Assembly: GCF_900116045.1 (NCBI RefSeq)
Contig: NZ_LT630450.1
Location: 2,628,501 to 2,692,500 of the forward strand
Reading direction: 5' to 3'
Length of the DNA stretch: 64,000 bases
Origin: Desulfovibrio piger
GTDB taxonomy: Bacteria > Desulfobacterota > Desulfovibrionia > Desulfovibrionales > Desulfovibrionaceae
This document shows, one piece after another, positions 296 to 48,972 of the stretch. The notes under the pieces are model-generated. The model was not told the origin of the DNA, made no database searches, and saw only the letters and a program-made list of their open reading frames with translations. A program made the position numbers and the translations under genes. How positions within the stretch are numbered: the first letter of the stretch is position 1; each line of letters starts with the position of its first letter.

Positions 296-634
296 TCATA
301 TTTTCTTGTCTGAAGTATCGGGTACGATAAAAGCTGCCTTTTGGGGAGTTTGTTTTTTCGTAGAGATTGCTTCCTGTTTTTGAGTGACGGGAATATTTCC
401 GTTTTCCGTAAAAAATCGTTTTATAAGGTACGCGGGAATGATAATGCCTTCATTCTTGAGCATCTGGCTCAGTTCTCTGGAATTGTAGCCTTTTTCCTTC
501 GCCTTTTTGAAATCCCGCTCAAGCAGCTCAGCAGCTTCCGGGCGGGTCTTCCTGTTTTCCTTTTCCGGTAAATTCTGAAGCAGTTTTTTTGCCTGTTCTA
601 TCTGTTGAGGACGGATAGTCGCGTTCGAGGACAT
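296..634 (-). CDS. Small basic HTH-like accessory protein next to oriT
   Basis: This 112-residue, Lys/Glu-rich protein is not recognised as a named family. The middle (residues ~35-75) reads as a helix-turn-helix-like unit: EAAELLERDF, then KGYNSRELSQMLKNEGI, then a hydrophobic helix. The same layout (long helix, KxG, sorting helix, 'L..xGI', final helix) is seen in the protein at 42,022-42,405 beside the second relaxase, so both may be DNA-binding relaxosome or plasmid-maintenance accessories; this is inference. It is divergent from the mobilization genes and its start lies ~90 bases from the oriT palindrome. The start ATG is preceded by GGAG-like purines (CAAGGAGCAAT). Confidence 0.55.
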   Translation of the reverse strand: MSSNATIRPQQIEQAKKLLQNLPEKENRKTRPEAAELLERDFKKAKEKGYNSRELSQMLKNEGIIIPAYLIKRFFTENGNIPVTQKQEAISTKKQTPQKAAFIVPDTSDKKI

Positions 635-723: not shown

Positions 724-820
724 TGGCAGGATGGTAGTTGTAATACACAACTACCATCCTGCCAGAAGGCTGACGCCCTCTGGACTCCCGGAATGCTCGG
801 CGCTTCGCTTCTCGCATTCC
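724..820. other. oriT: Candidate origin of transfer (oriT) of element 1
   Basis: A perfect 18-bp inverted repeat, TGGCAGGATGGTAGTTGT (724-741) and its complement (747-764) with a 5-base loop, is followed by a second inverted repeat GGAATGC (790-796)/GCATTCC (814-820). The right arm contains CCATCCTGCC, which fits the IncP/IncI nick consensus YATCCTG/Y, with the cut expected between 761 and 762. Because the palindrome is perfect, the same motif exists on the other strand in the left arm. It lies directly upstream of the MobC/NikA-like gene and an RP4-TraI-type relaxase, the usual place for oriT. Confidence 0.7.
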
Positions 821-834
821 AAAGGTAAAGAGGC

Positions 835-1212
835 ATGAGAGGCAAAAAAGGAACGAATGGTGAAGGTAAGTATGCCGCCAATCTGTTGCTCACCTTTCGA
901 GTGACAGCAGAGGAAAAAGTGCGTCTTGAGCAGCAGGCGGATATGGCGGGGCTGTCCGTTTCCGCGTATCTGCGCCGGAGGTTTTTCGGAGGACGCCCGC
1001 TCATAGCCCACACCGACGCCATGATGATTCGGGAACTTCGCCGTATCGGGGGCCTGCTCAAGCACAACTTTGAAACGCTTCGGCAGTCGGGTGCCGGTGT
1101 GGATATGCTTGAGCGGCAGGAACGGGCGTTGGAGCTTCTGGTTTCCGCCATTGAGCATCTTGGAGTGCCCGGCCATGATAGTGAAGAAAGTCAGACGGGA
1201 AATCGTCGATAA
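835..1212 (+). CDS. MobC/NikA-like relaxosome accessory protein
   Basis: A 125-residue protein with an N-terminal ribbon-helix-helix-like segment (residues ~15-50: LLLTFRVTAEEKVRLEQQA then GLSVSAYLRRR), followed by a helical region with RELRRIGGLLKHN, typical of MobC/NikA proteins. Such proteins bind the oriT inverted repeat and recruit the relaxase to the nick site. The gene starts 71 bases downstream of the candidate oriT and overlaps the relaxase start by 38 bases, indicating translational coupling. Family membership is from motif layout and context; the exact subfamily is not certain. Confidence 0.8.
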   Translation: MRGKKGTNGEGKYAANLLLTFRVTAEEKVRLEQQADMAGLSVSAYLRRRFFGGRPLIAHTDAMMIRELRRIGGLLKHNFETLRQSGAGVDMLERQERALELLVSAIEHLGVPGHDSEESQTGNRR

Positions 1213-3427
1213 GCCGAAGACGTGGCAGATCGGGGATCTGGTGGATTACATCCGCTTTCCTCACAACAAGAATCCGCAGGAAAAGGTCGCCCATGCGGGC
1301 AGCAGGAATTTCCTGACTTCCACGCATAATGGCCAGAAGATGGAAATGATCGCTCTGGCCGAAGAGTCGGTTCACAGCAAGATGCCGGTGCAGCACTGGA
1401 TTTTTTCATGGCAGGAGGGGGAGCAGCCCACGAGGGAACAGGTGGATGAGGCTGTGGATATTTTTCTGGGTCACATGGGGCTGACCGGGCATCAGACCGT
1501 GTACGCTCTGCATTATGATACCGATAACTACCATCTTCACATTGCGGTGAACCGCATGAATGAGGAAACGGGAAAAGTCGTTCAGCCGCACAAAGGATTT
1601 GATATTGATGCGGCGCACAGGATTCTTGCGCTCATTGAACACGGACAGGGATGGAAACCGCAGGAAAAAGCCCGGTATGTCGTGCTGGAAAACGGTGAAC
1701 TGGCCCGGAGAAAGAGCGGCAGGGAAATAAAACCTCGACAGGCCGCCCTGGACGTTGAACACGCCACGGGAGAGAAGTCTGCCCAGCGTATCGTACAGGA
1801 GCGGGGGCATGACATCATACGGGATGCAGACTCATGGGAAGATATGCACCGGAAGCTGGCAGAAGTTGGTCTCCGTTTTGAGAAAAAAGGGTCCGGTGCG
1901 GTCATTTTTGTGGGAGATATTGCCGTGAAGGCTTCTTCCGTGGACCGGGCTTTCAGCATGAAAAAACTTTGCAGAAAATGGGGAGAGTTCACGGAAGGAA
2001 ACTATACGAAGGAGCAAGAAGCATTGCCGCCGGAGCCGGTGAGTTCGGTAAACCTGGAAGAATGGAAACTCTATCAGCAGGAATTTGAGGAAGAAGAAAA
2101 AGAGGCACGAAACGACGAGGCAATAACGCCGGTCGATTCCCTGCGAAAGCGGCAGAGAGAACAGCGTCGGAAGAGTCTTGCCCGGCTGGCGCAATACGGC
2201 GTGCCGGTACTGAATATTGCCCGTCATTGTCTGAAAATACAGCAGAGGGAAGAGCGACGTTTCCTGCGGGGCACGGGGAAAAAGGTCAGGCGGCATAAAC
2301 CCCGGTTTGAGGCATGGCTGCGGGCAAAAGGACTGCATCGTCAGGCAGGACTCTGGAGGTATCGTTCCGCCTGGGAAAAGACAAGACACACCCCGCCGCC
2401 GGTGCCGGACAGAGGAAGAGAATTCATGCGGGAAATGGAGAATTTCAGGCGTTATGCCGCAGCCGTCGGAGCAGACAGGTATCGAGTGACCTGCATCGCC
2501 ATGGAGACAAACGGGAATAAAAAGACCTTCATTCTCGACAAGGAAGGCGGCGTTACCAGGGGATTTACCCCTGAAGAACTGGTCTTGCGCATACCTGAGA
2601 TGCTCAGGCTCCAGCGGCGCGAAGAGAATATATATTACACGCCGTTATCCGAGGAAAAACATCATGTGCTTATCGACGACATGACGGCGGAAAGTCTGGT
2701 CCGGCTGCAAAGGGACGGATACCGGCCTGCGGTCATTCTGGAGAGTTCTCCGGGGAATTTTCAATGCCTTCTGACCATCGCAAAACTGGGGAGCCGTTTT
2801 GACCGGGATGTGGGCAACCGGCTTACGGAACGGCTGAACAAGGAGTATGGAGATAAAAAATTGTGCGGTTGCATCCACCCGCACAGAGCGCCGGGCTTTG
2901 AGAATCGAAAGCCGAAGCATCGTCGGGAAGACGGTTCCTTCCCGGAGGTGAAACTTCTGGTTGCCGAAAAACGTGAGTGCCACAAGGCGCTGGAGCTGGC
3001 CCGACAGATAGCCGGGGAATATGAGGCCGCCGCTGAGAGCAGAAAACGATGTCCGGTACTGCCTCCGGGAGGCGGACCTTCAGGCGATGCCGTTACCGCC
3101 TACCATGCTCACCTGGAGGATATTCGCCGTCACCTGACCATTGAAGACTACTCCCGTGTGGATGCCATGATCGCCCTGCGACTTCGCGCTACCGGCCATA
3201 GCCGGGATGCTGTGATGGAGGCTGTCCGGCAATGCGCTCCCGCTATCCGGGAGACGCCCGCACGCAGAGACTGGCAGCGATACGCCGAACGCACGGCGGA
3301 TTACGCTTTCGGCACAGCGGGAGATGTAGAGCTGGCGAAGTATGAAACATACCGGGAGCTGTGGCGACGAGTGGAGGAACGTGTCGGTATGCAGCAAAAG
3401 TCTGCACTCCATACACGCATGAGGTAA
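1175..3427 (+). CDS. MOBP relaxase fused to a RepB-like primase domain
   Basis: The 750-residue product has an N-terminal relaxase that resembles RP4 TraI: Tyr25 in LVDYIR corresponds to the nicking tyrosine, and HYDTDNYHLHIAVN (residues ~125-140) is the metal-binding HxDx..HxH motif III. The C-terminal half (residues ~450-650, YRVTCIAME through HPHRAPGFENRKPKHR) looks like the RepB-type DNA primase domain seen in MobA-RepB fusions of IncQ plasmids, so the protein could nick, pilot and prime the transferred strand. An upstream in-frame start at 1,070 exists, but ATG 1,175 begins at the conserved MIVKKV start and is preferred. The gene converges on the large methylase-helicase gene. Confidence 0.88.
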   Translation: MIVKKVRREIVDKPKTWQIGDLVDYIRFPHNKNPQEKVAHAGSRNFLTSTHNGQKMEMIALAEESVHSKMPVQHWIFSWQEGEQPTREQVDEAVDIFLGHMGLTGHQTVYALHYDTDNYHLHIAVNRMNEETGKVVQPHKGFDIDAAHRILALIEHGQGWKPQEKARYVVLENGELARRKSGREIKPRQAALDVEHATGEKSAQRIVQERGHDIIRDADSWEDMHRKLAEVGLRFEKKGSGAVIFVGDIAVKASSVDRAFSMKKLCRKWGEFTEGNYTKEQEALPPEPVSSVNLEEWKLYQQEFEEEEKEARNDEAITPVDSLRKRQREQRRKSLARLAQYGVPVLNIARHCLKIQQREERRFLRGTGKKVRRHKPRFEAWLRAKGLHRQAGLWRYRSAWEKTRHTPPPVPDRGREFMREMENFRRYAAAVGADRYRVTCIAMETNGNKKTFILDKEGGVTRGFTPEELVLRIPEMLRLQRREENIYYTPLSEEKHHVLIDDMTAESLVRLQRDGYRPAVILESSPGNFQCLLTIAKLGSRFDRDVGNRLTERLNKEYGDKKLCGCIHPHRAPGFENRKPKHRREDGSFPEVKLLVAEKRECHKALELARQIAGEYEAAAESRKRCPVLPPGGGPSGDAVTAYHAHLEDIRRHLTIEDYSRVDAMIALRLRATGHSRDAVMEAVRQCAPAIRETPARRDWQRYAERTADYAFGTAGDVELAKYETYRELWRRVEERVGMQQKSALHTRMR

Positions 3428-3544: not shown

Positions 3545-6500
3545 TTATCTCATTCGCATGGAGAAAGTCTCCTGCACAGGAGGCGCAGTGATGTTTTGCG
3601 TTTCCGCCATGTTCTTATAGATGCTGGCATAGTCCAGAGTTTCCTTGAGCGTATCAAAAGAGGCATGGACGGTTCGCGCACCGTTGATGATGTGGTCTTT
3701 TTCATACTGAACACGCAGGCCGACTTTGCCCTCTTCCGTCTGGAATATTCTCAGCTCAAATATTCCGCCGTCACCCGTTTCAACCTTCAGCTCGTGTTCC
3801 TGTTTGCCGTAAAAATCCATGCCGGAAGGCCGGAATCCGGCTTTTTCCATGGCTTGGCGATAGAAGTCGCCCTCCGTTGCCGAAGCTGCGGAGAGATCCT
3901 TCTCAGGATGCGTCATGGCATCGGCAAAACCGAGCAGTGCGGCATCCTGGCGTGCGAAATTCAGGGCGTCTTCTCTGCTCTCAAACTGCTTGAAGCGGAC
4001 ACCGGGCGGGCCTTTCACAAGGGAGTGCCAGAGATTGTCGTCATACAGGCAATGGATGGGCCACCTCGTAGTTTCACGCACATGGGAACGGTTCAGAAGA
4101 TACCCGACCGGACTGTGCGTGACGGCGTACTCCGTCTGGTCCCCCTGCTCACCAAAGGTAAGCGTACAGACACGGTGGTCTTTCGGTGCCGCGTCTGCCA
4201 TGGAGAAGGGGGCGTCGGGAGTTTCCTGCCTGGTCTCTTCTGCCGGAGTCGTGTCGGCCCCGGCGTCGGAAGTCTTTGGTGTCCAGTGGGAAACATAGCT
4301 CGCGTCATCCTGCATACGCTGCAACTCCCGGATGATGGCGCTATGATTTTCCCGCGCCAGGGTCAGTTCCTCCTTCTGGGGAAACTCCCTGCCGAGCGCT
4401 TCTCTGGTTGTTTCCAGTTCCGCCTTTTCATGACGGCAGGTTTCCCGGAATTTTTCCATGGCTTCATCGAAACCTTTGGCCAGGAAGTTGTCCATGCGCT
4501 GGAACAGACCGGAAAGACTGAGTTTGTTGTCAAAGAGATAGACGAGATTGTCCGGCTTGAACTCCTGTCCATCCGTACCTGTCACAACGATTCTGAACCC
4601 CTCCTTGCCGCCGAAGGACTGGGCATAGCGTTCAAGGTGCATGGCGAAGCCCCGATAGGAGCCGAACAGTACCCTGGCTCCGGCATTGCGCGTGATCTCC
4701 TTCACGCAGCCGAGCAGAATATCCTTTATTTTTTCGCCGTCTCTGTCCGTCAGCATCTTGTCTCCCGCAAAGAGTTCTATACGGATTTTTTCCTTGTCTT
4801 TTTCCTTGATGATATGGGTGTGGCTGTCCCGGTGCCGGATGTTGGCGGCGTAGGCGCTTTCCGCCTTGGCAAGACGCTCATCGGTTCCGTTGAGCCACTT
4901 CAGCCTGTCGCGCAGACGATGCTGTCCCCGCTGATGCTGGGAATACAGGGCTTCCAGCTTGCGAAGGTCTGCGGCAAGCTGAACCTGCATGAGAATCAGC
5001 GGATTGCCTGAAGCTGCGGCCTTCATTTCGGCGGCGTTGGCGGCCTCGCTCTGCACGTCGTCGATAACGCGCTGGAGCAGATCGCCCTTGCGGAACTGCT
5101 CGATGGCAGCCGCCTTGTACTCTATGGTCTGCCACATCCGGGCGTCATACGTCTGTTTGGTGGCATAGTTGTAAATGCCCACGGAGAAGTGTTCCGGGTC
5201 GCGCTCATAGAACAGGTTGCCCTGGCGGATAATGCGCCCGTTGCGCTGTTCCAGGTCGGAAGGCCGCCAGGGGGCATCAAGATGATGTGCGGCCACCAGA
5301 CGTTTCTGGACATTCATGCCAGCGCCCATCTTGCTGGTGGAGCCGAGCAGGATACGAACATGGCCGGCATTCATGTCGGAAAAGAGTTTTGCCTTGCGGA
5401 TGTCGGTGTTGGCCTCATGGATGAAGGCGATTTCTTCCGGCGGAACCCCCCGCGCGACAAGTTTGCTTCGTATGTCGTCATAGACGGAAAACTTTGACGA
5501 CAGCGCAATGACGGCATCCATGTCGGAAGCGACGGAGGTGTCTTCACCGCTGTCGTCCTTTTCCGCCTGTGTTGTTCCGTGAGATTCCTCATCCTTCTGT
5601 TCAGGCAGAAGTGTGCCGTCCACGTCCAGCAGCGTTTCCAATTCCAGGTCGTTACGGTTGGCCGGTGCGGAAGTCGGAGTTCTGCCGCCCTTGGGGGTGG
5701 ACAGGTCGCAGAAGACAAGCTGCGTGCCTCTGTCCGCCGCCGTGTCGCTCCAAATGTGATAGATGCGTTCAACGGCGGCGTTGACCTTGGACCCTGCAAA
5801 ATCATCCGCGTGCGGTTCTATCAGGCGATAGTCCAGACCGGCCTTGCGGGCGTCGTTGGTGATTTTGAGCGGATTGTCCTGACGCGGATCGGGAGGAAGG
5901 TTTTCCATGCGGTGGATGATTTTTTCCATGTAGGCCGCCTGTTCCCCGGAGCGTTCGGCCACATCGTTATACGGCTTTCCATCAGTGACGGGAGGCGTCA
6001 GGGGGCGCAGCCCTGCCTGCTTTGCCTGTTCATCCAGATCGTTTTTGGTGACGACATCGGCAAAGGTCCGGTACATGGCAAGCAGTTCCGGGATGTTCTG
6101 GAATTTGGCGAAGCGGCTTTTGAGCTTGTAGTTCACCCCTGTGGCGTCAAGTTCCCAGCCGCTTGTGACCTGGCCGAAGGTGGAGGCCCAGGAGTCAAAA
6201 TGGTCGATGCCCTTGGCCTGCAATTCCCCATACTGCATGTAGCGCTGGAGCGTGTACACTTCGGCAATGGTATTCGATATGGGGGTGCCGGTCAGAAAGT
6301 ACACGCCCCGGCCTTCGTTTTTCCGTTGCAGGTAGCGGCACTTGATGAAGAGATCGAGCGCTTTGGCCGAACCTGTGATATTGCCCAGACCTGAGACGTT
6401 CATGGTGGTCTGATAGGCAAGGTTCTTGAACTCGTGGCTTTCGTCCACAAAGAGCGCATCCACGCCCAGGTCGGCGAAATCAACGGAGGTATCCTTTTTC

Positions 6501-9500
6501 CCCGTGCCCGCGAGCAGAAGTTCATAGCGGGCTTCCATGTTTTCCCGCTGCTTTTCAAGCTGCTTGACCGTGGCCCGGCCGCCTTCCGCCTCCTTCACGG
6601 CCTCAATGGCTTCCAGCACCGCATCAATCTGCTCCTTCAGAATCTCCCGCTGAATGTCGTGAGGCATGTCGATTTTACGGAAGGAGCTGTGCGCGACGAT
6701 AACGGCATCCCAGTCTCCGGTCGCAATACGGGAAAAAAGCCGTTCCCGGTTCTGTTTGGTGAAGTCGGTCTTGTCCGCCACCAGAATATGGGCATTGGGA
6801 TAGAGCTTGTAGAACTCATCCCGCCACTGGTGGAGAAGGTGGTTGGGGACGACCACCATCGGTTTGGAAACAAAGCCCATGCGCTTGGATTCCATGATGG
6901 TCGCTATGCAGGCCATGGTCTTTCCCGCGCCGACGACGTGATCGAACAGGGCCGTGCCTTCCTGAATGGCCCGCCAGACGGCATCCTTCTGGTGAGGCCG
7001 AAGTTTTACTTCTGAAGAAGCGCCGACCAGCTCAAGATGGGAGCCGTCATACCTGGGAGGCACGTTCGTGTTGAAGCGGTCGTTGTAGAGCCTGGACAGG
7101 CTGGCTCTTCTGTCGTCATCCGTCCATATCCAGTCCGTGAAGGCCTGTTTTATTTCGTCGGCCTTCTGCATGGCTGCGGCGGTCAGCTCCTGGTCCAGAA
7201 CCGTGATGGGTCTGCCCTGTTCGTCGCGCTGGCCGGTTTCCTTTTCCACCTTGATGGGCTTGTTCATCAGAAGGGCTTCAATGATTTTTTCCGCAGGGTA
7301 TTCCGGGATGCCCCAGACGTTGGTATTCAGCGCGGCATCGTACAGATAGACACGGACGCTCCATCGACCGAGCGTGGGCAGGTAATCCACCTGCTGAGAG
7401 CCTTTTCCGCCATGCAGATGTTCGATGAAGTCCGATATGACGGAAGGAGGAAGCCAGGCGGAGCCGAACTTGACGCCGATGTCCACGGCTTCTATGTCGG
7501 GCGGCAGAGCCTCCGTAAGCGCTTCCACATTGGGCAGAAAGCGAGGGTCGGAGCTTGCGGCGTCCCGTGCCTGACGCAGTTTTGCCCGGACATTGCCCGT
7601 GAGATACTTATCCCTGATTTCCCAGAGTTCCGTGGCGGGGTTGAGAAAAATAAGGCCCTGTTCCTGCAAGTCCCGCTGAATGACATCGGTGGAGCGTCCG
7701 AGAAGCTGTTCCATGCGGGCAAAGTCCACCTTGCCGCTTTCCCGAAGCGCTATGACAAGGGCATCCTTGGGGCTTTCCGCCTGTTGGGCGAGCGTCGCCG
7801 GTTTAAGCACACGCTGTCGGAATACGGCAGCTTTTCTGGCGGAAGCGGGTCTGGCCTGTCTGCCGGTCTTGCGGGCCACATCCGGCGAAATGCCCTTGTC
7901 GTAGTCCGCTTCCAGGGATTCCAGCAGAGCGTGTTCAGGGTCTTCCCGCATGAGGCTGCGGTTGGTTTGTGAGTTGAGGTGCCCGTATTTTTTGACAAAG
8001 GCGTCGTATTGCGTGTTGAGCCGCTGGCGCAGGTTCGCCATACGACTTTCACTTCCTTCGCCTTTTTCCTCATTGAGCAGCTCACGCAGGGTATCCCTGA
8101 GCTGAATCATGGAAGCCAGGCGCAGTCGGGCGGTTTCATTTTTTACGGTGACGGGTTCATAACCTCCGTCGCCGAACTCCCCGGAAGTCTTGAAGACGAT
8201 TTTTCTGCTTTGAGGTTCAACGCAGAGTGCGCCCATTTTCAGGGACTGGAAGTAGTCGGAAGCCAGGAAGTCATGATTGAGACCGGATTCGGCTTCACGG
8301 ACTTCGGCAGAGGGTAAGGGGCTGAACTGCACGGCAGGCAGCGCGTCCAGACGCCGGGCTATTTCTTCGCCGAGGTCTGTCTGAGACGCATCGGACACGC
8401 AGTTCAGGCTGTCCTCGAACATGCCCCCGGAATACGCCATTCTTCCGATGATCTGTTCCGGGCGGGAAGCGAAGTAGCTGTTGACCACGGCGGTGCGCCT
8501 GCCGCCGTGCTTGAGGTCGTCCACTTCCATGCTGGACGTGTGGAGCCACTCCAGACTCCGCTTGTTTTCGCCGTTGTGCTTTTGAAAGAAAACGATGTCG
8601 GTGGTGACATCCGTCAGGGCATTTTGCCGGAAAGCGGTTTCAGGCAGGCGCACCGCGCCCAGGAAGTCGGCATATCCCGCGATATGTTCGCGGGCGGAGG
8701 AATCGACGGCATCCATGAAGTAACGGCTGACCACAAAGGCGGCTATGCCGCCCTCGCGCAGCAGGCGCATGGACTTGGCGAGAAAATAGTTGTGGATGGA
8801 AAATTTTTTCAGTTCGGGAAATTCGGGGTCGTAGAGAGACTGATTCCCGAAAGGAGGATTGCCCACTGCAAGGTCGAAACTCGGCGTGTTGAGGGGGATG
8901 TTCTGAAAGCCGTTATTGATGTGGCGGGCTTTGGGGTACAGGTATGCGGCAATGGCCGCTGTTGTCGGTTCCAGTTCCACGGCCAGGAACCGGGCCTGGA
9001 AACTTTCCGGGCAAAGTCCGATAAAATTGCCGATACCCGCCGAAGGTTCGAGAATGTGGAGTTCCTTTCCCGTTTCAACGCCGAGTCTGGAAAGCCCCTG
9101 ATAGATGCCCCTGATGACGGTTTCCGAGGTATAGTGAGCGTCCTGTGTGGAGCGCCGGGCGGCCGCGTATTCATCGGGGGAGAGTACGCCTTGAAGTTCC
9201 CGGTATTCCGCCGCCCATTTGTCGTTTTTGGGGTCAAAGACCTGCGGAAGACCACCCCATCCGACAAAATGCACCAGCGTGCTTTTTTCTTCCGGGGTGG
9301 CCAGTTTCGCGCCGTTGGCCTGGAGCTGCTTCAGCAGACGTATGGCGGCGAGGTTATCCGCATATTTTTTCTTTGCGCCGCCGACGCCAAGCTGATCTTC
9401 CGGGCTTATCCGGTAATTTTCAGGTTCATCTCCACCCCGCAGCTTTCCAAAATCTCCCAGTCCGACATCCCCCGCAGGCTCGCCTGCCGGGCGGATTCGC

Positions 9501-10207
9501 TGCACAGCGTCCTCTTCTCTATGGCCTGCTGCTGATCCAGTCGTATCTGCAAGGCCAGATTCCCTTCCTCTTCCAGGCGCTTCAGTTCGTCGGGACTGTT
9601 CAGTGCCCAGCGGTCGAGAATCAAGTAGGCTGAATTGGTGAACCCTCTGACCTTGAGGTCGTGAATGGTTTCTGGCTTGAGAACGGTTCTGGCGATGTCC
9701 AGCGGGTTTGTCTGTCTGTCCAGCATGGGAAACCTCCTGAGTTGAGGAATGTTGTTGTCTGAAGGCCGCGACTTCCTGCACGGTCAGGTAGTCTTCGTTT
9801 CCTTTCCGGAACAGCTCTTCCGGCGTGTCCCTGTCGCCGTCGATGAAGCGCACGATGTCCAGGGAAGGACTGTACATGCGTCCCCCGTCCGACGTTTCAT
9901 AAACAGAGAAACCGCGTCCGTTCACGCCGAGCCTTTTCGGGGGGATGCTGTCATCGGGCGGAAGCAGCGGCTTCCGTTTGCCGGGATGTTCCGGTTCTTT
10001 CGGAAGTTCTTCGTGTGAGGCGGGGCTGACCGGAGGCGTAGCGGACGGGGGCTGTTCGTGCGTCGGCTCCCGGAGTATCCGTGTTCCGGCTTCTTCCCTT
10101 ATGTCATCCTGAATGTTTTCTTCCCTGATCTGTTCGATATGGCTGACCATGATGTCGAACAGCGACAACTGACGGGAATCACTGGTCTGCTTGCGCCGTC
10201 TGGCCAT
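3545..10207 (-). CDS. DarB-like giant N6-adenine methyltransferase/SNF2-type helicase
   Basis: This 2,220-residue protein begins with a hydrophilic, proline-rich head (~1-160). A Rossmann methyltransferase domain (~270-620) follows, with LEPSAGIGNF and the amino-methylase motif NPPFGNQ. The helicase (~1,030-1,700) has VVGAGKT (Walker A), VDESHEF (motif II), TGTPISN (motif III) and QRNGRIIRQG (motif VI). The tail contains large coiled or polyvalent segments. Phage P1 DarB and related ICE/plasmid proteins share the methylase-helicase order and protect incoming DNA from type I restriction; that role is inferred here. Residues ~161-267 are low-complexity, Arg/Gly/His-rich sequence exactly where another gene (9,406-9,726) reads in the +1 frame. 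It lies 63 bases downstream of an AbrB-type regulator on the same strand. Confidence 0.85.
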   Translation of the reverse strand: MARRRKQTSDSRQLSLFDIMVSHIEQIREENIQDDIREEAGTRILREPTHEQPPSATPPVSPASHEELPKEPEHPGKRKPLLPPDDSIPPKRLGVNGRGFSVYETSDGGRMYSPSLDIVRFIDGDRDTPEELFRKGNEDYLTVQEVAAFRQQHSSTQEVSHAGQTDKPAGHRQNRSQARNHSRPQGQRVHQFSLLDSRPLGTEQSRRTEAPGRGRESGLADTTGSAAGHREEDAVQRIRPAGEPAGDVGLGDFGKLRGGDEPENYRISPEDQLGVGGAKKKYADNLAAIRLLKQLQANGAKLATPEEKSTLVHFVGWGGLPQVFDPKNDKWAAEYRELQGVLSPDEYAAARRSTQDAHYTSETVIRGIYQGLSRLGVETGKELHILEPSAGIGNFIGLCPESFQARFLAVELEPTTAAIAAYLYPKARHINNGFQNIPLNTPSFDLAVGNPPFGNQSLYDPEFPELKKFSIHNYFLAKSMRLLREGGIAAFVVSRYFMDAVDSSAREHIAGYADFLGAVRLPETAFRQNALTDVTTDIVFFQKHNGENKRSLEWLHTSSMEVDDLKHGGRRTAVVNSYFASRPEQIIGRMAYSGGMFEDSLNCVSDASQTDLGEEIARRLDALPAVQFSPLPSAEVREAESGLNHDFLASDYFQSLKMGALCVEPQSRKIVFKTSGEFGDGGYEPVTVKNETARLRLASMIQLRDTLRELLNEEKGEGSESRMANLRQRLNTQYDAFVKKYGHLNSQTNRSLMREDPEHALLESLEADYDKGISPDVARKTGRQARPASARKAAVFRQRVLKPATLAQQAESPKDALVIALRESGKVDFARMEQLLGRSTDVIQRDLQEQGLIFLNPATELWEIRDKYLTGNVRAKLRQARDAASSDPRFLPNVEALTEALPPDIEAVDIGVKFGSAWLPPSVISDFIEHLHGGKGSQQVDYLPTLGRWSVRVYLYDAALNTNVWGIPEYPAEKIIEALLMNKPIKVEKETGQRDEQGRPITVLDQELTAAAMQKADEIKQAFTDWIWTDDDRRASLSRLYNDRFNTNVPPRYDGSHLELVGASSEVKLRPHQKDAVWRAIQEGTALFDHVVGAGKTMACIATIMESKRMGFVSKPMVVVPNHLLHQWRDEFYKLYPNAHILVADKTDFTKQNRERLFSRIATGDWDAVIVAHSSFRKIDMPHDIQREILKEQIDAVLEAIEAVKEAEGGRATVKQLEKQRENMEARYELLLAGTGKKDTSVDFADLGVDALFVDESHEFKNLAYQTTMNVSGLGNITGSAKALDLFIKCRYLQRKNEGRGVYFLTGTPISNTIAEVYTLQRYMQYGELQAKGIDHFDSWASTFGQVTSGWELDATGVNYKLKSRFAKFQNIPELLAMYRTFADVVTKNDLDEQAKQAGLRPLTPPVTDGKPYNDVAERSGEQAAYMEKIIHRMENLPPDPRQDNPLKITNDARKAGLDYRLIEPHADDFAGSKVNAAVERIYHIWSDTAADRGTQLVFCDLSTPKGGRTPTSAPANRNDLELETLLDVDGTLLPEQKDEESHGTTQAEKDDSGEDTSVASDMDAVIALSSKFSVYDDIRSKLVARGVPPEEIAFIHEANTDIRKAKLFSDMNAGHVRILLGSTSKMGAGMNVQKRLVAAHHLDAPWRPSDLEQRNGRIIRQGNLFYERDPEHFSVGIYNYATKQTYDARMWQTIEYKAAAIEQFRKGDLLQRVIDDVQSEAANAAEMKAAASGNPLILMQVQLAADLRKLEALYSQHQRGQHRLRDRLKWLNGTDERLAKAESAYAANIRHRDSHTHIIKEKDKEKIRIELFAGDKMLTDRDGEKIKDILLGCVKEITRNAGARVLFGSYRGFAMHLERYAQSFGGKEGFRIVVTGTDGQEFKPDNLVYLFDNKLSLSGLFQRMDNFLAKGFDEAMEKFRETCRHEKAELETTREALGREFPQKEELTLARENHSAIIRELQRMQDDASYVSHWTPKTSDAGADTTPAEETRQETPDAPFSMADAAPKDHRVCTLTFGEQGDQTEYAVTHSPVGYLLNRSHVRETTRWPIHCLYDDNLWHSLVKGPPGVRFKQFESREDALNFARQDAALLGFADAMTHPEKDLSAASATEGDFYRQAMEKAGFRPSGMDFYGKQEHELKVETGDGGIFELRIFQTEEGKVGLRVQYEKDHIINGARTVHASFDTLKETLDYASIYKNMAETQNITAPPVQETFSMRMR
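9406..9726 (-). CDS. Embedded 106-residue protein in another frame of the methylase-helicase gene
   Basis: Starting ATG at 9,726 has a textbook AGGAGG site six bases upstream. The product (starting MLDRQTNPLDIARTVLKPET) has normal amino-acid composition with hydrophobic helices (FTNSAYLILDRWALNSPDE), whereas the long frame over the same bases is Arg/His/Gln-rich and looks non-native. Its stop overlaps the point where the conserved methylase sequence (NYRISPEDQLGVGG) begins. The function is unknown. Two readings are possible: true dual coding, or an ancestral three-gene arrangement whose outer genes have become one open frame. Confidence 0.65.
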   Translation of the reverse strand: MLDRQTNPLDIARTVLKPETIHDLKVRGFTNSAYLILDRWALNSPDELKRLEEEGNLALQIRLDQQQAIEKRTLCSESARQASLRGMSDWEILESCGVEMNLKITG

Positions 10208-11989: not shown

Positions 11990-13765
11990 TTATGCCGCAT
12001 GGTCATAGTGTTTCTCCTGGGAGAGCTGCACAAGCTGGGGAACGCGCAGCTGCGCTTTTTTCAGGGGAGGGTTGGCAAAGAACATGGTGCCCCGGACGAT
12101 TTGCCCGCTGAAGATGAAATGGGCTTCGCCTTCGATCTGTTCCTGCAAGTCGCGCAGGACGACGCGGTCTTCCTGTTCCACGGTGGTGTTCATGGCGTCG
12201 CGGTAACCTGCGCTTATTTTTTCGTTGACGTTGAAGCCGGTGGTGCGGAGGACGGTGCCTTGTCCGGCCTGTCCCCGTATGAGTTCCCAGGTTTTTTCCG
12301 CGTCCTGCATTTTCATGAAGATTTTTATGGAGGTGTTGGCCACCATCTGCTGCGCGCCTTTTTTGTCTGCTTCCAGAATACCGGCGTAATCCTGGGAGGC
12401 GACGATGGCGGCTATGCCGAGACCGCGCCCCTGGGTCAGCACGACCTCAAAGCCGGGGGTGACGATGGCCGCATATTCATCCACGATGCACAGATACGGG
12501 CCGATGCCCACAGTGTCCGTGGGCAGGGCTTCCAGCACGTCGGCGGCGTCGCCTTCAATATGTGCGCCGAGGCCAACGGCACAGGCGTTGCGTATGGCGG
12601 AGAGGCTGATTTTTCCGAGGCTGGCCAGTTCTGCGGGGGCTTTTTCCAGCGAAGGCAGAAGAACGACCAGCACGCGGCGCTGCATGATGGCGTCTGCAAA
12701 ATCGACTTCTCCGTCTTCAGCCCCGTAGATGTGGGAATAGGTGTCCGTCAGGCTGGAAAGGGCCTTTCCGAAGTAGCTCTGGGCATAGCCGAACTGCTCC
12801 GCAAAGGACTGGGGCTGGTCTTTCATTTCCCGTCCGGCAATCCAGCCGCAGGTGCCGAGAGCCGCATGGATGGAGGCGCGGGACTCTTCATCAAGCTCCG
12901 CCCGCAGCGCGAGGGCGACACATTTTTCAAGCGCCAGCGATTCACGGATGACGCTGGTGGAGAGCTTGAGCAGCCCTTTGTCGCGCAGGTCCACCAGGGC
13001 GTACATGACGCCGGAAATCAACGCCTGCGCCTTGTCGGCAAAGATGCTGTTCGCCCCGTCGGACGCGGGCATGAGGGAAACAAGAAGCTGCGTCAGGGCT
13101 TCCGCACTGCCGAAGGTGAAGGGATTGTTGGTGTTGGAAAGACGGCGCGGAGTTTTTCCTTTGACTTTGCCGGAAGTGCCGTAGTTCAGCACGCGGAAGT
13201 CGTCGTCCCGTCCCAGAAAGCGGGCCATCTGCCATATCTGTACGGCGAGTTTCGGACTTGCTTTCGGGTCGATGTAGAACAGCCCGCTTCCCGTAGCCAG
13301 AGCATTGTATGAAAGGGAAACGAGGGTTTCCGTCTTGCCGGAACCGGTGGTGCCGAAAAGCAGGCAGTGGGTAAGAATGTCCTTGGCCTTCAGCCAGAGT
13401 TCTTTCTGGTCCTGTACCCTGTTTCCCAGGAAGAAGATGCCCTCCGGTCTGGCGTAGCCGCGTCTGCCGGGCAGAGGATCGCCTTTATCCGTGCCGGAGA
13501 GACCGAGCGGCATTCGGAAAGGCAGCCTTTCGTCTTCGACATAGACGCAGCGGGCGGCAAACAGAGCAAGCCCGGCGATAAAGAACGGCATGGAGAGCGA
13601 GGGAAAAAGAAAAAGACACACCCCCGCCGCAAAGATGCCGCCGGTTTGCACATGGCCGAGCCTGAGCGTGTCTCCCAGGCGTTGCAGCGGGGAGCGCACA
13701 TCCCGGAAGAGCCGTTTCCGTTCCTGCGTTTCGTGGTCTTCAAGACCTCTGATTTTTCGTTCCAT
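11990..13765 (-). CDS. dotL: DotL/TrbC-type type IV coupling protein
   Basis: The 592-residue ATPase has two N-terminal membrane-spanning stretches (~45-85), Walker A FGTTGSGKTET (~150) and a Walker B/DEY motif (CIVDEYAAI). This is the VirD4/DotL (IcmO; IncI TrbC) family that brings the relaxase-DNA complex to the secretion channel. GAGG precedes ATG 13,765 by five bases and the upstream gene's stop lies eight bases away, so this start is preferred to the longer frame from 13,813. It forms a dotM-dotL pair, as in IncI plasmids and Legionella. Confidence 0.88.
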   Translation of the reverse strand: MERKIRGLEDHETQERKRLFRDVRSPLQRLGDTLRLGHVQTGGIFAAGVCLFLFPSLSMPFFIAGLALFAARCVYVEDERLPFRMPLGLSGTDKGDPLPGRRGYARPEGIFFLGNRVQDQKELWLKAKDILTHCLLFGTTGSGKTETLVSLSYNALATGSGLFYIDPKASPKLAVQIWQMARFLGRDDDFRVLNYGTSGKVKGKTPRRLSNTNNPFTFGSAEALTQLLVSLMPASDGANSIFADKAQALISGVMYALVDLRDKGLLKLSTSVIRESLALEKCVALALRAELDEESRASIHAALGTCGWIAGREMKDQPQSFAEQFGYAQSYFGKALSSLTDTYSHIYGAEDGEVDFADAIMQRRVLVVLLPSLEKAPAELASLGKISLSAIRNACAVGLGAHIEGDAADVLEALPTDTVGIGPYLCIVDEYAAIVTPGFEVVLTQGRGLGIAAIVASQDYAGILEADKKGAQQMVANTSIKIFMKMQDAEKTWELIRGQAGQGTVLRTTGFNVNEKISAGYRDAMNTTVEQEDRVVLRDLQEQIEGEAHFIFSGQIVRGTMFFANPPLKKAQLRVPQLVQLSQEKHYDHAA

Positions 13766-13772
13766 ACGCACC

Positions 13773-15092
13773 TCAATAGTGTTCTTCCGCCAGGGAAGGG
13801 TCGTCGTTGGCATCGTATTCCGGGTCGTTTTCTGCCGCAGCGTACACCATATCCGACACAGGTTCCGCCTGCTCCACGGCAGGCGTAAAGGACTGCTCGA
13901 ACATGGGCGGAATGAAAATGTCCGTCAGCCAGCCCTGGGCGGACAAGGAATCCTTGAGACTCGTGACGGCGAGAGCAACGTGAGGCTCGGTCAGGGCCTG
14001 CCCCGCCTGTTCTTCTGCCTTGTAGTGCGCCCAGGGAGCCAGGCTTTCCACCCACGCGGTTCTTCCCCCGCATTGGTTGAGCGCGTACCAGAGCGGCCTG
14101 TCCAACGGGCGAAGCCACAGGAACTGGGAACTGGCCAGAACGCCTTTTTTCCTTGCCCGGCACAGCAGCGCCATGAACCACGGAAGCTCGAATGCCGCGT
14201 GGATACGGAGGGATTTTTCGGAAAGAACGGACTGATGCCTTTCCCAGATGCGGTTCAGATTCAGATGGAAGTTTTTTTGTTCCAGAACGGGGCATGTCGC
14301 CCTGTCGCGTTTTTCCCGATAGGAGGATGAGACGGCATCCAGTACGGCAACGCAGCCTTTTTTGTCGCCGTCCGCATAGGCCAGGAATGCGGCGGCCAGC
14401 GCACGACGGCAGGCAGTCATGGCCGTATAGTTCTCGAATGGTTTGCCGAGCTGGGCCTGAAAGGCGGCGAGAGCTTTGTCTTCATCCAGCCTGGCATTGC
14501 CCCATGCGGGAAGCTCCGTATCCGCCAGCCCGTTATGCAGAGCCTGTTCCGGAGTGAAGGCTTCACCGTTTTCATTGAGCAGAAGTTCCTGTTCCAGCGC
14601 GAATTGAACGGGAGTTCGGGCAATGCGCCATAAGCCGGAATCGTAGGATTTGGGCGAAAGCAGGTACTTGCCGCGACCAACGACCGGTCTGAGACAGGGG
14701 AAGGATTCCGCGTTGTTTTTCAGCAGGCTTTTCATGCTGAAATGCCGGACGAGCCTTCCCACCCGACCTATGAAAATGGCGGTGCAGCCGCACAAAAGCA
14801 GAAGCAGCGCGAGCGGCCATCGCATCCATGACCCGGCATAGCGCAGCAATCCCCGCACCTGTTCCCAGGTCAGCGCGGCGGGTTCCACCTCGGTGAGACG
14901 CTCAAGGATGGTCCGTACTTCTTCTGAAAAAGGCGCAAAGACTCTGAGCTGGATACTTGCCAGCCAGACCAGAGGCGCGTTGACGCTTCCCTTATGCGCT
15001 GCGTACAGAGCCGGGATGACAACAAAAATCAGCACCAGAAGCGCAAACCACAGAAAAAGCATGTCGTCCCTGTCGTCGCGGAGCTGACTCAC
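13773..15092 (-). CDS. dotM: DotM/IcmP (TrbA)-family T4SS membrane protein
   Basis: The 439-residue protein has N-terminal transmembrane helices (LFLWFALLVLIFVVIPALYAA, and ALLLLLCGCTAIFIG near residue 100) and a large cytoplasmic domain. The region RIWERHQSVLSEKSLRIHAAFELPWFMALLCRARKKGVLASSQFLWLRPLDRPLW is characteristic of DotM/TrbA. In the Dot/Icm system this protein partners DotL in the coupling complex that receives substrates. It overlaps the transglycosylase gene by four bases and is followed directly by dotL. Confidence 0.85.
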   Translation of the reverse strand: MSQLRDDRDDMLFLWFALLVLIFVVIPALYAAHKGSVNAPLVWLASIQLRVFAPFSEEVRTILERLTEVEPAALTWEQVRGLLRYAGSWMRWPLALLLLLCGCTAIFIGRVGRLVRHFSMKSLLKNNAESFPCLRPVVGRGKYLLSPKSYDSGLWRIARTPVQFALEQELLLNENGEAFTPEQALHNGLADTELPAWGNARLDEDKALAAFQAQLGKPFENYTAMTACRRALAAAFLAYADGDKKGCVAVLDAVSSSYREKRDRATCPVLEQKNFHLNLNRIWERHQSVLSEKSLRIHAAFELPWFMALLCRARKKGVLASSQFLWLRPLDRPLWYALNQCGGRTAWVESLAPWAHYKAEEQAGQALTEPHVALAVTSLKDSLSAQGWLTDIFIPPMFEQSFTPAVEQAEPVSDMVYAAAENDPEYDANDDPSLAEEHY

Positions 15093-35845: not shown

Positions 35846-35915
35846 ACCGGCCGGAATCAAACATATTTTTGTCCATGTGGGTATCTCTCCGTCCAACGAC
35901 AACCAGGGAGTGCCC

Positions 35916-37127
35916 ATGCCTCTTACCGATACCCACATCCGCAGTCTGAAACCCGATTCAAAGCCCCGCAAATATTTCGACGGCGGCGGCCTGTTCCTCT
36001 ATGTGCCCACCAGCGGCAGCAAGCTCTGGCGGATGGCTTACCGCTTTGACGGCAAGAGCAAACTGCTCAGTTTCGGGGAATACCCCAGCGTCTCGCTCAG
36101 GGACGCCAGAGAACGACGCGAGGATGCCCGGCGTCTGCTGGCCAAAGGCGTTGATCCTTCCGAGCAGAAACGGGAAGAAAAGAAGGCCAGAATCTCAGCC
36201 GAACGCGAGAGCTTCCAGAATATCGCCAGAGAATGGCATGAAACCCGCATGGCGGAGTTTTCTGAAAAGCATCAGGGAACCGTCATGTACCGGCTGAAAA
36301 CCTACATCTTTCCACGTATTGGCAAAATGCACATCGCCAAACTGGAAACACGGGATATCATGGAGGTGGTCAAGCCTCTGGAGCAGCGGGGAAACTATGA
36401 GACTTCCCGGAGAGTGCTGCAGATCATCAATCAGGTATTCCGCTATGCGGTCATCACGGGCCGGGCAAAGCACAATATCGCAGCCGATCTTCGGGGAGCC
36501 TTGAGGCCGAGAAAAACGGTCCATCGCGCGGCGGTGCTGGAACCGGAAAAAGTCGGCCAGCTTTTGCGGGATATCGACGCCTACGAAGGCTATTTTCCTC
36601 TGGTCTGTGCCTTGAAGCTGGCTCCGTTGGTTTTCACCCGTCCCACGGAACTGCGGGCTGCCCAATGGAAGGAATTCGACCTTGAGTCCGGGGAATGGCG
36701 CATCCCTGCGGAACGCATGAAAATGCGCCGTCAGCATCTTGTGCCCCTGTCCCGGCAGGCAATGTTCATTCTTCGGGAACTTCAAAAATACTCCGGGGAG
36801 GGAAAATTCCTTTTTCCCTCCATCCGCACGGAGGTACGGCCCATTTCCGATGCGACCATGCTTAATGCGCTTCGGCGCATGGGCTACCAGAAGCACGAAA
36901 TGAGCGTGCATGGTTTTCGCTCCATCGCATCCACACTGCTCAACGAACTCGGCTATAACCGGGACTGGATTGAGAGGCAGCTTGCCCACGGGGAGCAGGA
37001 CGAAGTGCGTGCGGCATACAATTATGCGGAATATCTGCCTGAGCGCCGAAAGATGATGCAGGATTGGGCGGACTATCTGGACGGATTACGCAACACACAG
37101 CAGAAAAGAAATAAGGAGGGAGTATGA
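35916..37127 (+). CDS. int: P4-type tyrosine recombinase (integrase) of element 2
   Basis: The 403-residue protein has an N-terminal DUF4102-like arm-binding domain (LTDTHIRSLKPDSKPRKYFDGGGLFLYV and WRMAYRFDGKSKLLSFGEYPSVSLRDAR), a core-binding helix domain and a catalytic domain. The catalytic domain has Arg in FTRPTELRAAQW, HGFR near residue ~330, His in RQLAHGEQDEVRAAYN and the nucleophile Tyr in YNYAEYL. GGGAG precedes ATG 35,916, preferred to an upstream GTG. It lies directly inside attL and reads into the element, as usual for tRNA-specific islands. Confidence 0.93.
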   Translation: MPLTDTHIRSLKPDSKPRKYFDGGGLFLYVPTSGSKLWRMAYRFDGKSKLLSFGEYPSVSLRDARERREDARRLLAKGVDPSEQKREEKKARISAERESFQNIAREWHETRMAEFSEKHQGTVMYRLKTYIFPRIGKMHIAKLETRDIMEVVKPLEQRGNYETSRRVLQIINQVFRYAVITGRAKHNIAADLRGALRPRKTVHRAAVLEPEKVGQLLRDIDAYEGYFPLVCALKLAPLVFTRPTELRAAQWKEFDLESGEWRIPAERMKMRRQHLVPLSRQAMFILRELQKYSGEGKFLFPSIRTEVRPISDATMLNALRRMGYQKHEMSVHGFRSIASTLLNELGYNRDWIERQLAHGEQDEVRAAYNYAEYLPERRKMMQDWADYLDGLRNTQQKRNKEGV

Positions 37128-45936: not shown

Positions 45937-45940
<4 letters not shown>

Positions 45941-48900
45941 CGACCCGTTTCAACATGGTGGCGCAATGCCCGGAAAGCACGGTTGTAGCCGAATATACTC
46001 CCTCCAGAATTCGTTCCGACGCCTATCAGAGCGAAGCGGATCTGGAGAAAGAATTCATCCGCCAACTGTGTTCGCAGGGCTATGAATATTTGTCTGTACA
46101 CAATGAAGCCGCACTTGTGGACAACCTGCGCCGCCAGTTGGAATTGCTCAACAACTATACTTTTTCTGACCAGGAGTGGCGACGCTTCTTTACGCAGCAC
46201 CTTGCCAATGCCAATGAAGGCATTGAGGAAAAGACACGTCGCATTCAGGAAGATTGTGTCATCAACCTGACCAGAGATGACCGTACAACAAAAAATATCA
46301 CGCTGCTGGACAAGAAAAACATTCACAACAACCGTCTTCAGGTCATCAATCAGTATGAAGAGAGTGCGGGAACCTATCAGACACGGTATGACGTGACTAT
46401 TCTGGTCAATGGCCTGCCTTTGGCGCATGTGGAGTTGAAGCGCCGAGGGGTGCCCATCCGGGAAGCTTTTAACCAGATAAAGCGCTATCAGCGTGACAGC
46501 TTCTGGGCCGGGTCCGGGCTGTATGAATATGTACAGATATTCGTCATTTCCAATGGTACGCATACCAAATATTATTCCAATACCACCCGGGAGGCTCACG
46601 TCAGGGAACAGAATAACAGCGGTAGGCGCAAGAGCAAAAAGACCAGCAACTCTTTCGAGTTCACTTCCTATTGGGCGGACGGCAACAATACCGTCATTGC
46701 TGATCTTGTGGACTTTACCAAGACATTCTTTGCCCGCCATACCCTGCTGAATATCCTTACCCGGTTCTGTGTGTTAACTACCGAAAAAATGCTGCTGGTA
46801 ATGCGTCCTTATCAAATAACGGCCACCGAGCGTATTTTGCAACGACTGGAAATAGCCCACAACTATAAAAAAGCGGGAAGCGTGGAAGGCGGAGGCTATA
46901 TCTGGCACACCACGGGTTCCGGTAAAACGCTGACTTCCTTCAAGACGGCCCAGCTTGCCACACGCCTTCCCTATGTGGACAAGGTGCTTTTTGTGGTTGA
47001 CCGCAAAGATTTGGATTACCAGACCATCAAGGAGTACGACCGCTTTGAAAAAGGCGCGGCCAACGGCAACAATTCCGTTTCCGTACTGACACGGCAACTG
47101 GAAGATTCCGGCTGCCATATCATCATCACGACTATTCAAAAGCTGGGCATTTTCATTAGGCGCAACCCCAAACATCCCGTTTTCCAGCAGCGTATCGTAC
47201 TTATTTTTGACGAATGCCACCGTTCCCAGTTTGGCGATTTGCACACGGCCATTGTCAAAGCATTCAGGCAGTACCACCTGTTCGGTTTTACCGGTACGCC
47301 CATTTTTGCGGTCAATGCCGGAACGGGCGGTAATCCCTTGTTAAAGACCACAGAACAGGCTTTCGGCGATAAACTGCACACCTACACCATCGTCAACGCC
47401 ATTAATGACGGCAACGTGTTGCCGTTCCGCATTGATTACATCAATACTGTGAAGATGGCGGAAAACGTCAGGGATTACAAAGTTCAGGCCATTGATATTG
47501 AAAAGGCCCTTGCTGCACCGGAGCGTATCTCGGGTGTGGTCAGATACATTATCGAGCATTTTGACCAGAAGACCAAGCGCAACAGCTTTTACTCTCTGAA
47601 AGGTCAGCGCGTGTCGGGATTTAACTCCATCCTGGCCGTCAGCTCCATTCCCATGGCTATCGCCTATTACAAGGAATTGAAAAAGCAACTGGCGGAACTG
47701 CGTCGGGAAATGACCATAGCTACTATCTTCAGTTTCAATCCCAACGAAGCCGATCCCGAAGATGCTATTGCCGATGAAAGTTTTGATACCGCCGGTCTTG
47801 ATGCCACATCGCGCGATTTTCTGGAATCCGCCATTACCGATTACAACACAACATTCAACACAAACTACGATACATCGGCCGACAAGTTCCAGAACTACTA
47901 TAAAGACCTGTCGCAGCGCATGAAAAACCGTGAGATTGACCTCCTTGTGGTGGTCAACATGTTTCTCACTGGGTTTGACGCGACAACCCTTAATACTCTG
48001 TGGGTGGACAAAAATCTCAAATACCACAGCCTGATACAGGCATATTCCCGCACCAATCGCATTCTCAATTCGGTCAAGACCTTCGGCAATATCGTCTGTT
48101 TTCGTGATTTGCAGAAGGAAACGGATGACGCCATTGCGCTGTTCGGCAATAAGGATGCGGGCGGTGTCGTACTGCTGAAGACGTATGAAGACTACTATAA
48201 TGGTTTTGATGAGGAAAAATCAGATGGTGATACAAAACATACAAGTGGCTATAAAGAACTGATAGAAAACCTGCTGACGCGCTTTCCTCTTGAGCAGTCT
48301 ATCATCGGCGAGCAGGACGAGAAAGATTTTATCGCGCTCTTTGGTTCAATTCTGAGGATGCGGAATATTCTGACAGCGTTTGACGATTTCAAGGGCAATG
48401 AAATTCTGTCCGAGCGACAGTTGCAGGACTATCAGAGTATGTATCTTGATCTCTATCAGAAACATCGGCCCGGCAAGGTGGAAAAGGAAGACATTACATC
48501 TGATGTGGTCTTTGAAATGGAACTGGTACGGCAGGTGGAAATCAATATCGACTATATCCTGATGCTGGTCGAAAAATACCGCGCTTCCCACGGCAAAGAC
48601 AAGACCATCCTCGCGTCCATCGGCACAGCTATCAATTCAAGTATTGAACTGCGCAGCAAAAAAGAACTCATTGAGGGTTTTATTGCCGATATCAATGTCT
48701 CCGCTTCTGTGAGCGAGGACTGGAGGCGCTATGTTGATGAACGCCGTGAGGCTGATATAAAGGCCCTCATCGCACGGGAAAAACTGCAACCGGAAGAAAC
48801 CAGAAAATTTCTGGATAACGCCTTCCGTAGTGGCGAACTGAAAACGATAGGCGAGGATATTCAGAAAATCATGCCGCCGAGTAATCCGTTTGACATAAAA

Positions 48901-48972
48901 AGCAGCGAAAAGAAAAAAGGGATTATAGATAGACTAAAGGAGTTTTTTGAAAAATACATTGGCATTGTGTAA
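45937..48972 (+). CDS. hsdR: Type I restriction endonuclease/translocase subunit HsdR
   Basis: The 1,011-residue protein has an N-terminal nuclease domain with the PD-(D/E)xK core (TRYDVTILVNGLPLAHVELKRRG, ~150-170). SF2 translocase motifs follow: HTTGSGKTLTS (Walker A, ~325), FDECHRSQFG (~428), FGFTGTPIF and AYSRTNRILN, then the C-terminal HsdM/HsdS-binding helices. It looks intact. The start overlaps the hsdS second half by four bases, so in the present hsdS OFF frame translation of hsdR may depend on its own initiation. Confidence 0.95.

Follow-up and report, generated by a model that had tools for sequence, protein, structure and literature searches.

We identified, in the oriT of an apparent integrative conjugative element of Desulfovibrio piger, two inverted copies of the nick motif CATCCTG, the second of which is probably a pairing partner of the first within an oriT of the MOBP type. 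Both lie in a perfect 18-bp inverted repeat at positions 724-764 of the 64,000-nt stretch of DNA analysed here (the window). The arms of the repeat (724-741 and 747-764) are 100% complementary around a 5-nt loop (742-746), and, as the preliminary description of this DNA had reported, each carries the motif; it lies at 727-733 on the minus strand and at 755-761 on the plus strand. The explanation we favour is that the palindrome forms the oriT core of an integrative conjugative element whose relaxase is of the MOBP type.

The palindrome and its genetic surroundings

In 64 kb of the window's composition, chance would produce about 2.5e-5 perfect repeats as large as this one, and we therefore rejected a chance origin; the 41-nt strand of the palindrome folds with a z of -11.1. 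A 73-nt query from the site matched its own position only, on both strands, in the 2.8-Mb genome, and no DNA relatives of 690-860 were found in the plasmid collection. The heptamer CATCCTG is over-represented in the window (29 copies versus 11.5 expected, with a maximum of 22 in 100 shuffles); therefore, our case is built not on the motif count but on the pairing of two inverted copies and on how far relatives conserve them. Most of the copies in the window lie on the plus strand, for which codon usage is perhaps the reason. We also considered a known RNA family at the palindrome and rejected it, as a search of 400-1400 against Rfam returned no family at the gathering score and only four matches, all sub-threshold.

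The left CATCCTG is adjoined by the predicted hairpin HP1 (734-754, formed by 734-741 with 747-754), the inner stem of the palindrome, which is likely the target of the NikA-like protein described below. HP1 is followed by the right CATCCTG, which reads CAGGATG on the minus, presumably transferred, strand and is there an anti-nic complementary to the nick site. Directly after it begins the hairpin HP3 (762-783, one mismatch), followed by ACTCCC (784-789) and then by the hairpin HP2 with the conserved TCGGCGCTTCGCTTCTC (790-820), which in the D. piger element lies outside the interval between nic and its mirror. HP2 with TCGGCGCTTCGCTTCTC is strongly conserved across the 39 oriTs aligned below and recurs in pTC-F14 and pRSB105. 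HP3 with its ACTCCC tail (762-789) resembles hairpins preceding ACCC or GACCCC in R64, pCTX-M3, pTC-F14 and other loci; hairpins of this type persist in loci without a mirror, and HP3 with its tail is a candidate protein or primase site.

The palindrome sits between divergent open frames. On its right, a NikA/TraJ-type accessory gene is present upstream of the relaxase gene; it encodes a NikA-like ribbon-helix-helix protein (835-1212, plus strand; PF21983, 66.6 bits, cut-off 27). The relaxase, which is fused to a RepB-type primase (1175-3427, plus strand), matches PF03432 (84.6 bits versus a cut-off of 24.6), PF22863, PF16793 and PF22448 above their cut-offs, and TraI_MobP_relax with 237.9 bits, under its cut-off of 250. 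These are MOBP-type models, and the protein did not qualify as a MOBV relaxase. Its residues Y25, H113, H120 and H122, which we take to be the catalytic tyrosine and histidine motif positions, are invariant in 10 aligned sequences. This invariance, together with the conservation of the palindrome in related elements, bears out the earlier IncP-type reading in the form of an oriT of the RP4/R64/IncQ2 (MOBP) type. A search with the relaxase domain found no solved structures at E 0.01. Its closest relatives among named records come from Desulfovibrio, Bilophila and Mailhella assemblies.

On the left of the palindrome, a small protein (296-634, minus strand) is by its position a candidate for the place of TraK/MobC; it showed a weak BLASTP match to the histone-like mobilization protein of pTC-F14 (E 4e-4, a single pair), and profile searches found no family above cut-off for it. 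Downstream lies a transfer system of the I-type (Dot/Icm-like), with a TrbC/TraG-like coupling protein (11990-13813, minus strand; PF12696 above cut-off, TrbC_conju 314 bits, below the cut-off of 800) and a DotM-like gene that exceeds the Pfam cut-off; the NCBIfam matches of its DotB/TraJ-like and TrbC-like genes stay under the cut-offs. Beside the relaxase gene, 3545-10207 encodes a protein of 2220 aa in which Eco57I-type methylase domains occur together with SNF2/helicase domains. The window also holds a tyrosine integrase with an Arm-DNA-bind_3 domain (35877-37127) and a type I restriction R subunit (45937-48972). A search for the ends of the element brought up the integrase and tRNAs but established no attachment sites.

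Position of the nick site

We compared the oriT regions of R64, pCTX-M3, R751, pTC-F14 and pRSB105, with the relaxase gene oriented rightwards. In all five plasmids the nic motif lies opposite the relaxase-gene strand, beside HP1 (which is imperfect in pTC-F14), and the D. piger element likewise has a YATCCTG nick motif, with an inverted repeat alongside, on the strand opposite to its relaxase gene. Therefore, synteny, given the nick strands assumed for R64 and IncP, assigns the nick site to the left copy (727-733, minus strand). The likeness of the right flank to the post-nick sequence of RP4 had made the right copy a candidate for the nick; we rejected it, as all five plasmids place the nick on the left. 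The pCTX-M3 nic, printed as ACATCTTG|T (PMC8125031), is found at the syntenic left position. The functional nick is thus most likely the left copy, with a predicted cut of the minus strand between 727 and 726. The suggestion that a matching nick sequence is present on both strands is correct as far as sequence goes, but a reading as two equal sites is not the one best supported.

The plasmids share most of this layout with the D. piger element and differ from it in the sequence or the place of the right copy. R64 and pCTX-M3 (IncI1 and IncM, respectively; MOBP) have nic opposite the nikA strand, an adjoining HP1, a nic-like heptamer, HP3 and I-type transfer genes; however, their right copies (CATCTGG in R64, CGTCTTG in pCTX-M3) are imperfect, and the helix is broken or shorter. 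The IncQ2-type plasmids pTC-F14 and pRSB105, whose relaxases are 50-56% identical to that of D. piger over the matched parts, have an exact mirror CATCCTG followed by HP3, but HP2 lies between HP1 and the mirror (nic-HP1-HP2-mirror-HP3, versus nic-HP1-mirror-HP3-HP2 in D. piger), and pTC-F14 is predicted to form a three-way junction instead of one hairpin. IncP-beta R751 also shows nic, HP1, an exact mirror CATCCTG and a predicted 7-bp nic/anti-nic helix, but its mirror begins 82 nt from the start of nic, with other sequence in between.

The spacing of the two copies differs as well. The left copy is 1 nt from a stem in 20 of 25 wider loci (gaps of 0-3 searched). The distance of the right copy from HP1 varies: 7 of the 39 close relatives have extra bases in front of it, and its start is 82-98 nt away from that of nic in R751 and the IncQ2-like loci. 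HP3 and a GACYCC-like tail stay next to it, though their order relative to HP2 differs between families. With a flank of its own and a varying spacing, the right copy is thus not merely a duplicated nick context.

Conservation and pairing of the two copies

Within the Desulfovibrionaceae, the two copies are conserved nearly equally. In 35 of 39 aligned oriTs both arms carry an identical 7-mer (34 without skipping an insertion, as L079 counts as a match only if a 2-nt insertion in its left copy is skipped): CATCCTG/CATCCTG in 24, CATCTTG/CATCTTG in six and CAACCTG/CAACCTG in five. The rows were picked by a pattern (CCTG or CTTG before HP3, CA(A/G)-G on the left), so that agreement at those bases owes something to the selection itself, while positions 1-3 and the choice of C or T at position 5 were free. 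The four non-matching rows are L009, L021, L041 and L045; in the Desulfovibrio oriT L041 (1037-1160), AT-rich DNA replaces the left arm and the presumed nick, and the right copy is intact. Nine loci have no row in the alignment (L016, L022, L043, L044, L047, L051, L085, L099 and L102), owing to too little upstream DNA, no anchor or no row found. Among these, L044 has the right copy only, and L051 would have entered as a 6/7 row; in L047 no similar palindrome was found in about 1500 nt (1503) upstream, which counts against strict conservation.

In these close relatives the right copy co-changes with the left one. In the helix, 88.8% of the cells are paired versus 77.3% after shuffling, and the covariation score is 0.324 versus 0.121 (slid controls 0.037-0.107), neither value being reached in any of 500 shuffles, which ignore the relatedness of the rows. 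There was no excess of pairs with a change on both sides (265 of 500 shuffles at least as high) or of further pair types (370 of 500). When the rows were mapped on a tree of the relaxases (44 rows), we counted eight changes of nic, seven of the mirror and eight of the pair, so that changes of nic and mirror mostly coincide; a sign test on independent pairs gave p 0.5, with two pairs at position 3 and three at position 5 (the mirror being the same in one), the 2-3 informative pairs being too few for this tree-aware test. The seven motif pairs are kept in 36-38 of 38 distinct rows, whereas the next two pairs outside the motif are kept in 25 and 18 of 38, and the third in 35 again.

Outside this alignment we used two sets, of 25 and 35 loci, with a recognisable nic beside HP1; they include related loci, and some loci were first noticed through their mirror, so neither set was picked blind. 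Loci fetched twice were collapsed, L023/L109 were placed in the wider set, L105 is in the 25-locus set and outside the 35-locus set, and L094, L104 and L144 were omitted as near copies of L093. A screen of 54 loci contained 34 without a recognisable nic (of which L115, L123 and L163 were used through other comparisons), one duplicate and four that appeared spurious; pattern search found no nic in L089, L091, L092, L098, L102, L103, L106, L107, L108 and L110. Among 369 genomes from the class to which G198 belongs, a search at E 1e-15 gave one match, the centre itself.

In the 25-locus set, a plus-strand heptamer within 120 nt equals the locus's own nic in 10 loci (0.34 expected from shuffles) and matches it in at least six of seven bases in 18 (5.26 expected). 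Among the 35 loci, the heptamer before HP3 agrees with nic in all seven bases in 10, in six in nine, in five in seven, in four in three and in at most two in six, HP3 itself being unclear in at least three of the 35 (L093, L096 and L097). In pCTX-M3, which stands outside the 35, nic is CATCTTG and the mirror CGTCTTG, so that the C-to-T change at position 5 is present in both copies in a separate lineage. Five of the six loci where the right copy is nearly absent are similar and were collected in a single family search centred on a Cupriavidus genome; these five and L163, all without a mirror, led us to reject a mirror universal in MOBP. As judged from these sequences, the right copy is recurrent across MOBP yet not essential. 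In sum, the two copies agree in 35 of 39 aligned Desulfovibrionaceae oriTs, but beyond them the right copy is altered in 19 of 35 loci and nearly absent in six. Related oriTs in which one arm is not conserved, which the preliminary description had named as refuting its proposal, thus do occur among the 35 loci outside the Desulfovibrionaceae.

When the T-strand cut at the left nic is folded, all seven nic bases are predicted to be paired in 33 of the 39 close relatives, six in four and none in two, and HP3 abuts the nic/anti-nic helix without a gap in 37. We folded 16 of the 25 wider loci (leaving out L100, L105, L118, L120, L123, L158, L135 (R64), L163 and pRSB105): all seven bases are predicted to pair in 10, including pTC-F14 and R751, six in two, five in one and none in three (L096, L097 and L141), with a nonzero gap before HP3 in L093, L134 and L143. 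The pCTX-M3 fold pairs five of the seven. In IncQ2-like loci, for example L086, L087, L088 and L142, HP1 and HP2 are predicted to lie within a junction that the helix closes off, and the same helix is predicted around a junction in R751 and several IncQ2-type loci. In D. piger, the bases just outside the helix have two possible pairings, one across the palindrome and one inside HP3, and the helix is predicted to form on the plus strand too.

Possible roles of the second copy

We are inclined to believe, with somewhat better than even confidence, that the functional nick is on the left and that the right CATCCTG serves mainly as its pairing partner. The T-strand would leave leftwards, so that the relaxase genes enter last. 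As long as oriT is double-stranded, the HP1 arm and nic would be the targets of the relaxosome in the usual way. On the single-stranded T-strand, the anti-nic CAGGATG would pair with all seven bases of the nick site, extending HP1, and the resulting helix would set the cleavage point at its junction with HP3. The partner would most likely mask or position the nick site, chiefly for the rejoining step at termination. It speaks against the model that a relaxase acts on unpaired nic, so that the helix would first have to open.

Precedents make such a role plausible. In R64 and R1162, the inner arm is needed for initiation and the entire inverted repeat for termination, according to PMC5863519, which cites Furuya and Komano 2000. 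The same paper describes two alternative hairpins in the pMV158 oriT (IR1/IR3; MOBV): the nick site lies just at the end of the longer one, whereas formation of the shorter one exposes nic as a single strand. The relaxase of pMV158, however, belongs to another family, and in D. piger the extra stem would consist of the co-changing nick motif itself. TrwC also makes use of intramolecular contacts within nic (PMC4176350).

This pairing model accounts for the co-change, the drop of pairing outside the motif and the free spacing, but a perfect dyad also fits two nick sites or a duplex-binding dimer, which covariation does not separate. If both copies were functional nick sites, either strand could be cut, and transfer could start either way or two relaxases act together. 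The nic motif in both copies in 35 of 39 close relatives, some mismatches at position 3, where nic varies, as independently read sites allow, and the hairpin after the right copy all agree with this; we nevertheless regard it as unlikely, because loci outside the Desulfovibrionaceae that have the left motif show a drifting or missing right copy, the distance to HP1 is steady on the left and variable on the right, and the right copy has its own flank of HP3 and tail. The equal conservation and equal spacing that a bidirectional oriT needs were not found in the wider relatives.

The dyad might instead be an operator, bound as duplex by a dimer of the NikA-like protein (or by the relaxase) to repress the divergent promoters, which would account for its symmetry. 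NikA-type proteins bind repeat arms, and the dyad is indeed located between divergent open frames. MobM of pMV158 represses its own gene by binding oriT (PMC5863519). However, an operator gives no reason for arms that take in the nick motif to its very end, the pairs next to the motif are less well kept as described above, and the pRSB105 copy lies about 40 nt beyond HP1, so that we give this explanation rather little credence. Alternatively, HP1, HP3 and HP2, all on the sense strand upstream of nikA, could belong to a transcript leader whose folding regulates expression, pairing at the DNA level being incidental. This seems very improbable, as covariation ties the helix to the presumed cleavage motif, next to which it stops, and Rfam offered no family at the gathering score in 400-1400.

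A more specific form of the pairing model is that, in conjugation of the RP4/R64/IncQ2 type, nic is read partly by base pairing, the anti-nic pairing with nic next to HP3 and so guiding the relaxase at the DNA level, as in IS200/IS605. We put this forward tentatively and consider it less likely than not. In IS608, the guide sequence is located beside a hairpin. Recognition of a short DNA site through base pairing is described for this IS200/IS605 element (PMC5934647); however, IS608 uses a transposase instead of a relaxase, and pairing in the D. piger oriT may either aid or hide cleavage. A limited check of the open-access literature found, among the matches listed, no description of a nic-complementary partner in the MOBP family. 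If the guide reading were true, the specificity of the relaxase would be encoded jointly by the protein and the anti-nic, and the Desulfovibrionaceae palindrome would be the most compact form of the fold.

Recognition of the nick site is less clear at the end of transfer, on single-stranded oriT, than at its start, and the co-change of nick site and complementary partner lends itself to a simple test by paired changes. A partner acting as a guide or a lock would affect the prediction of oriT sites from sequence and cross-recognition between them, including those of R751 and pCTX-M3. The paired nick-site pattern is present, less strictly, in some well-known plasmids as well.
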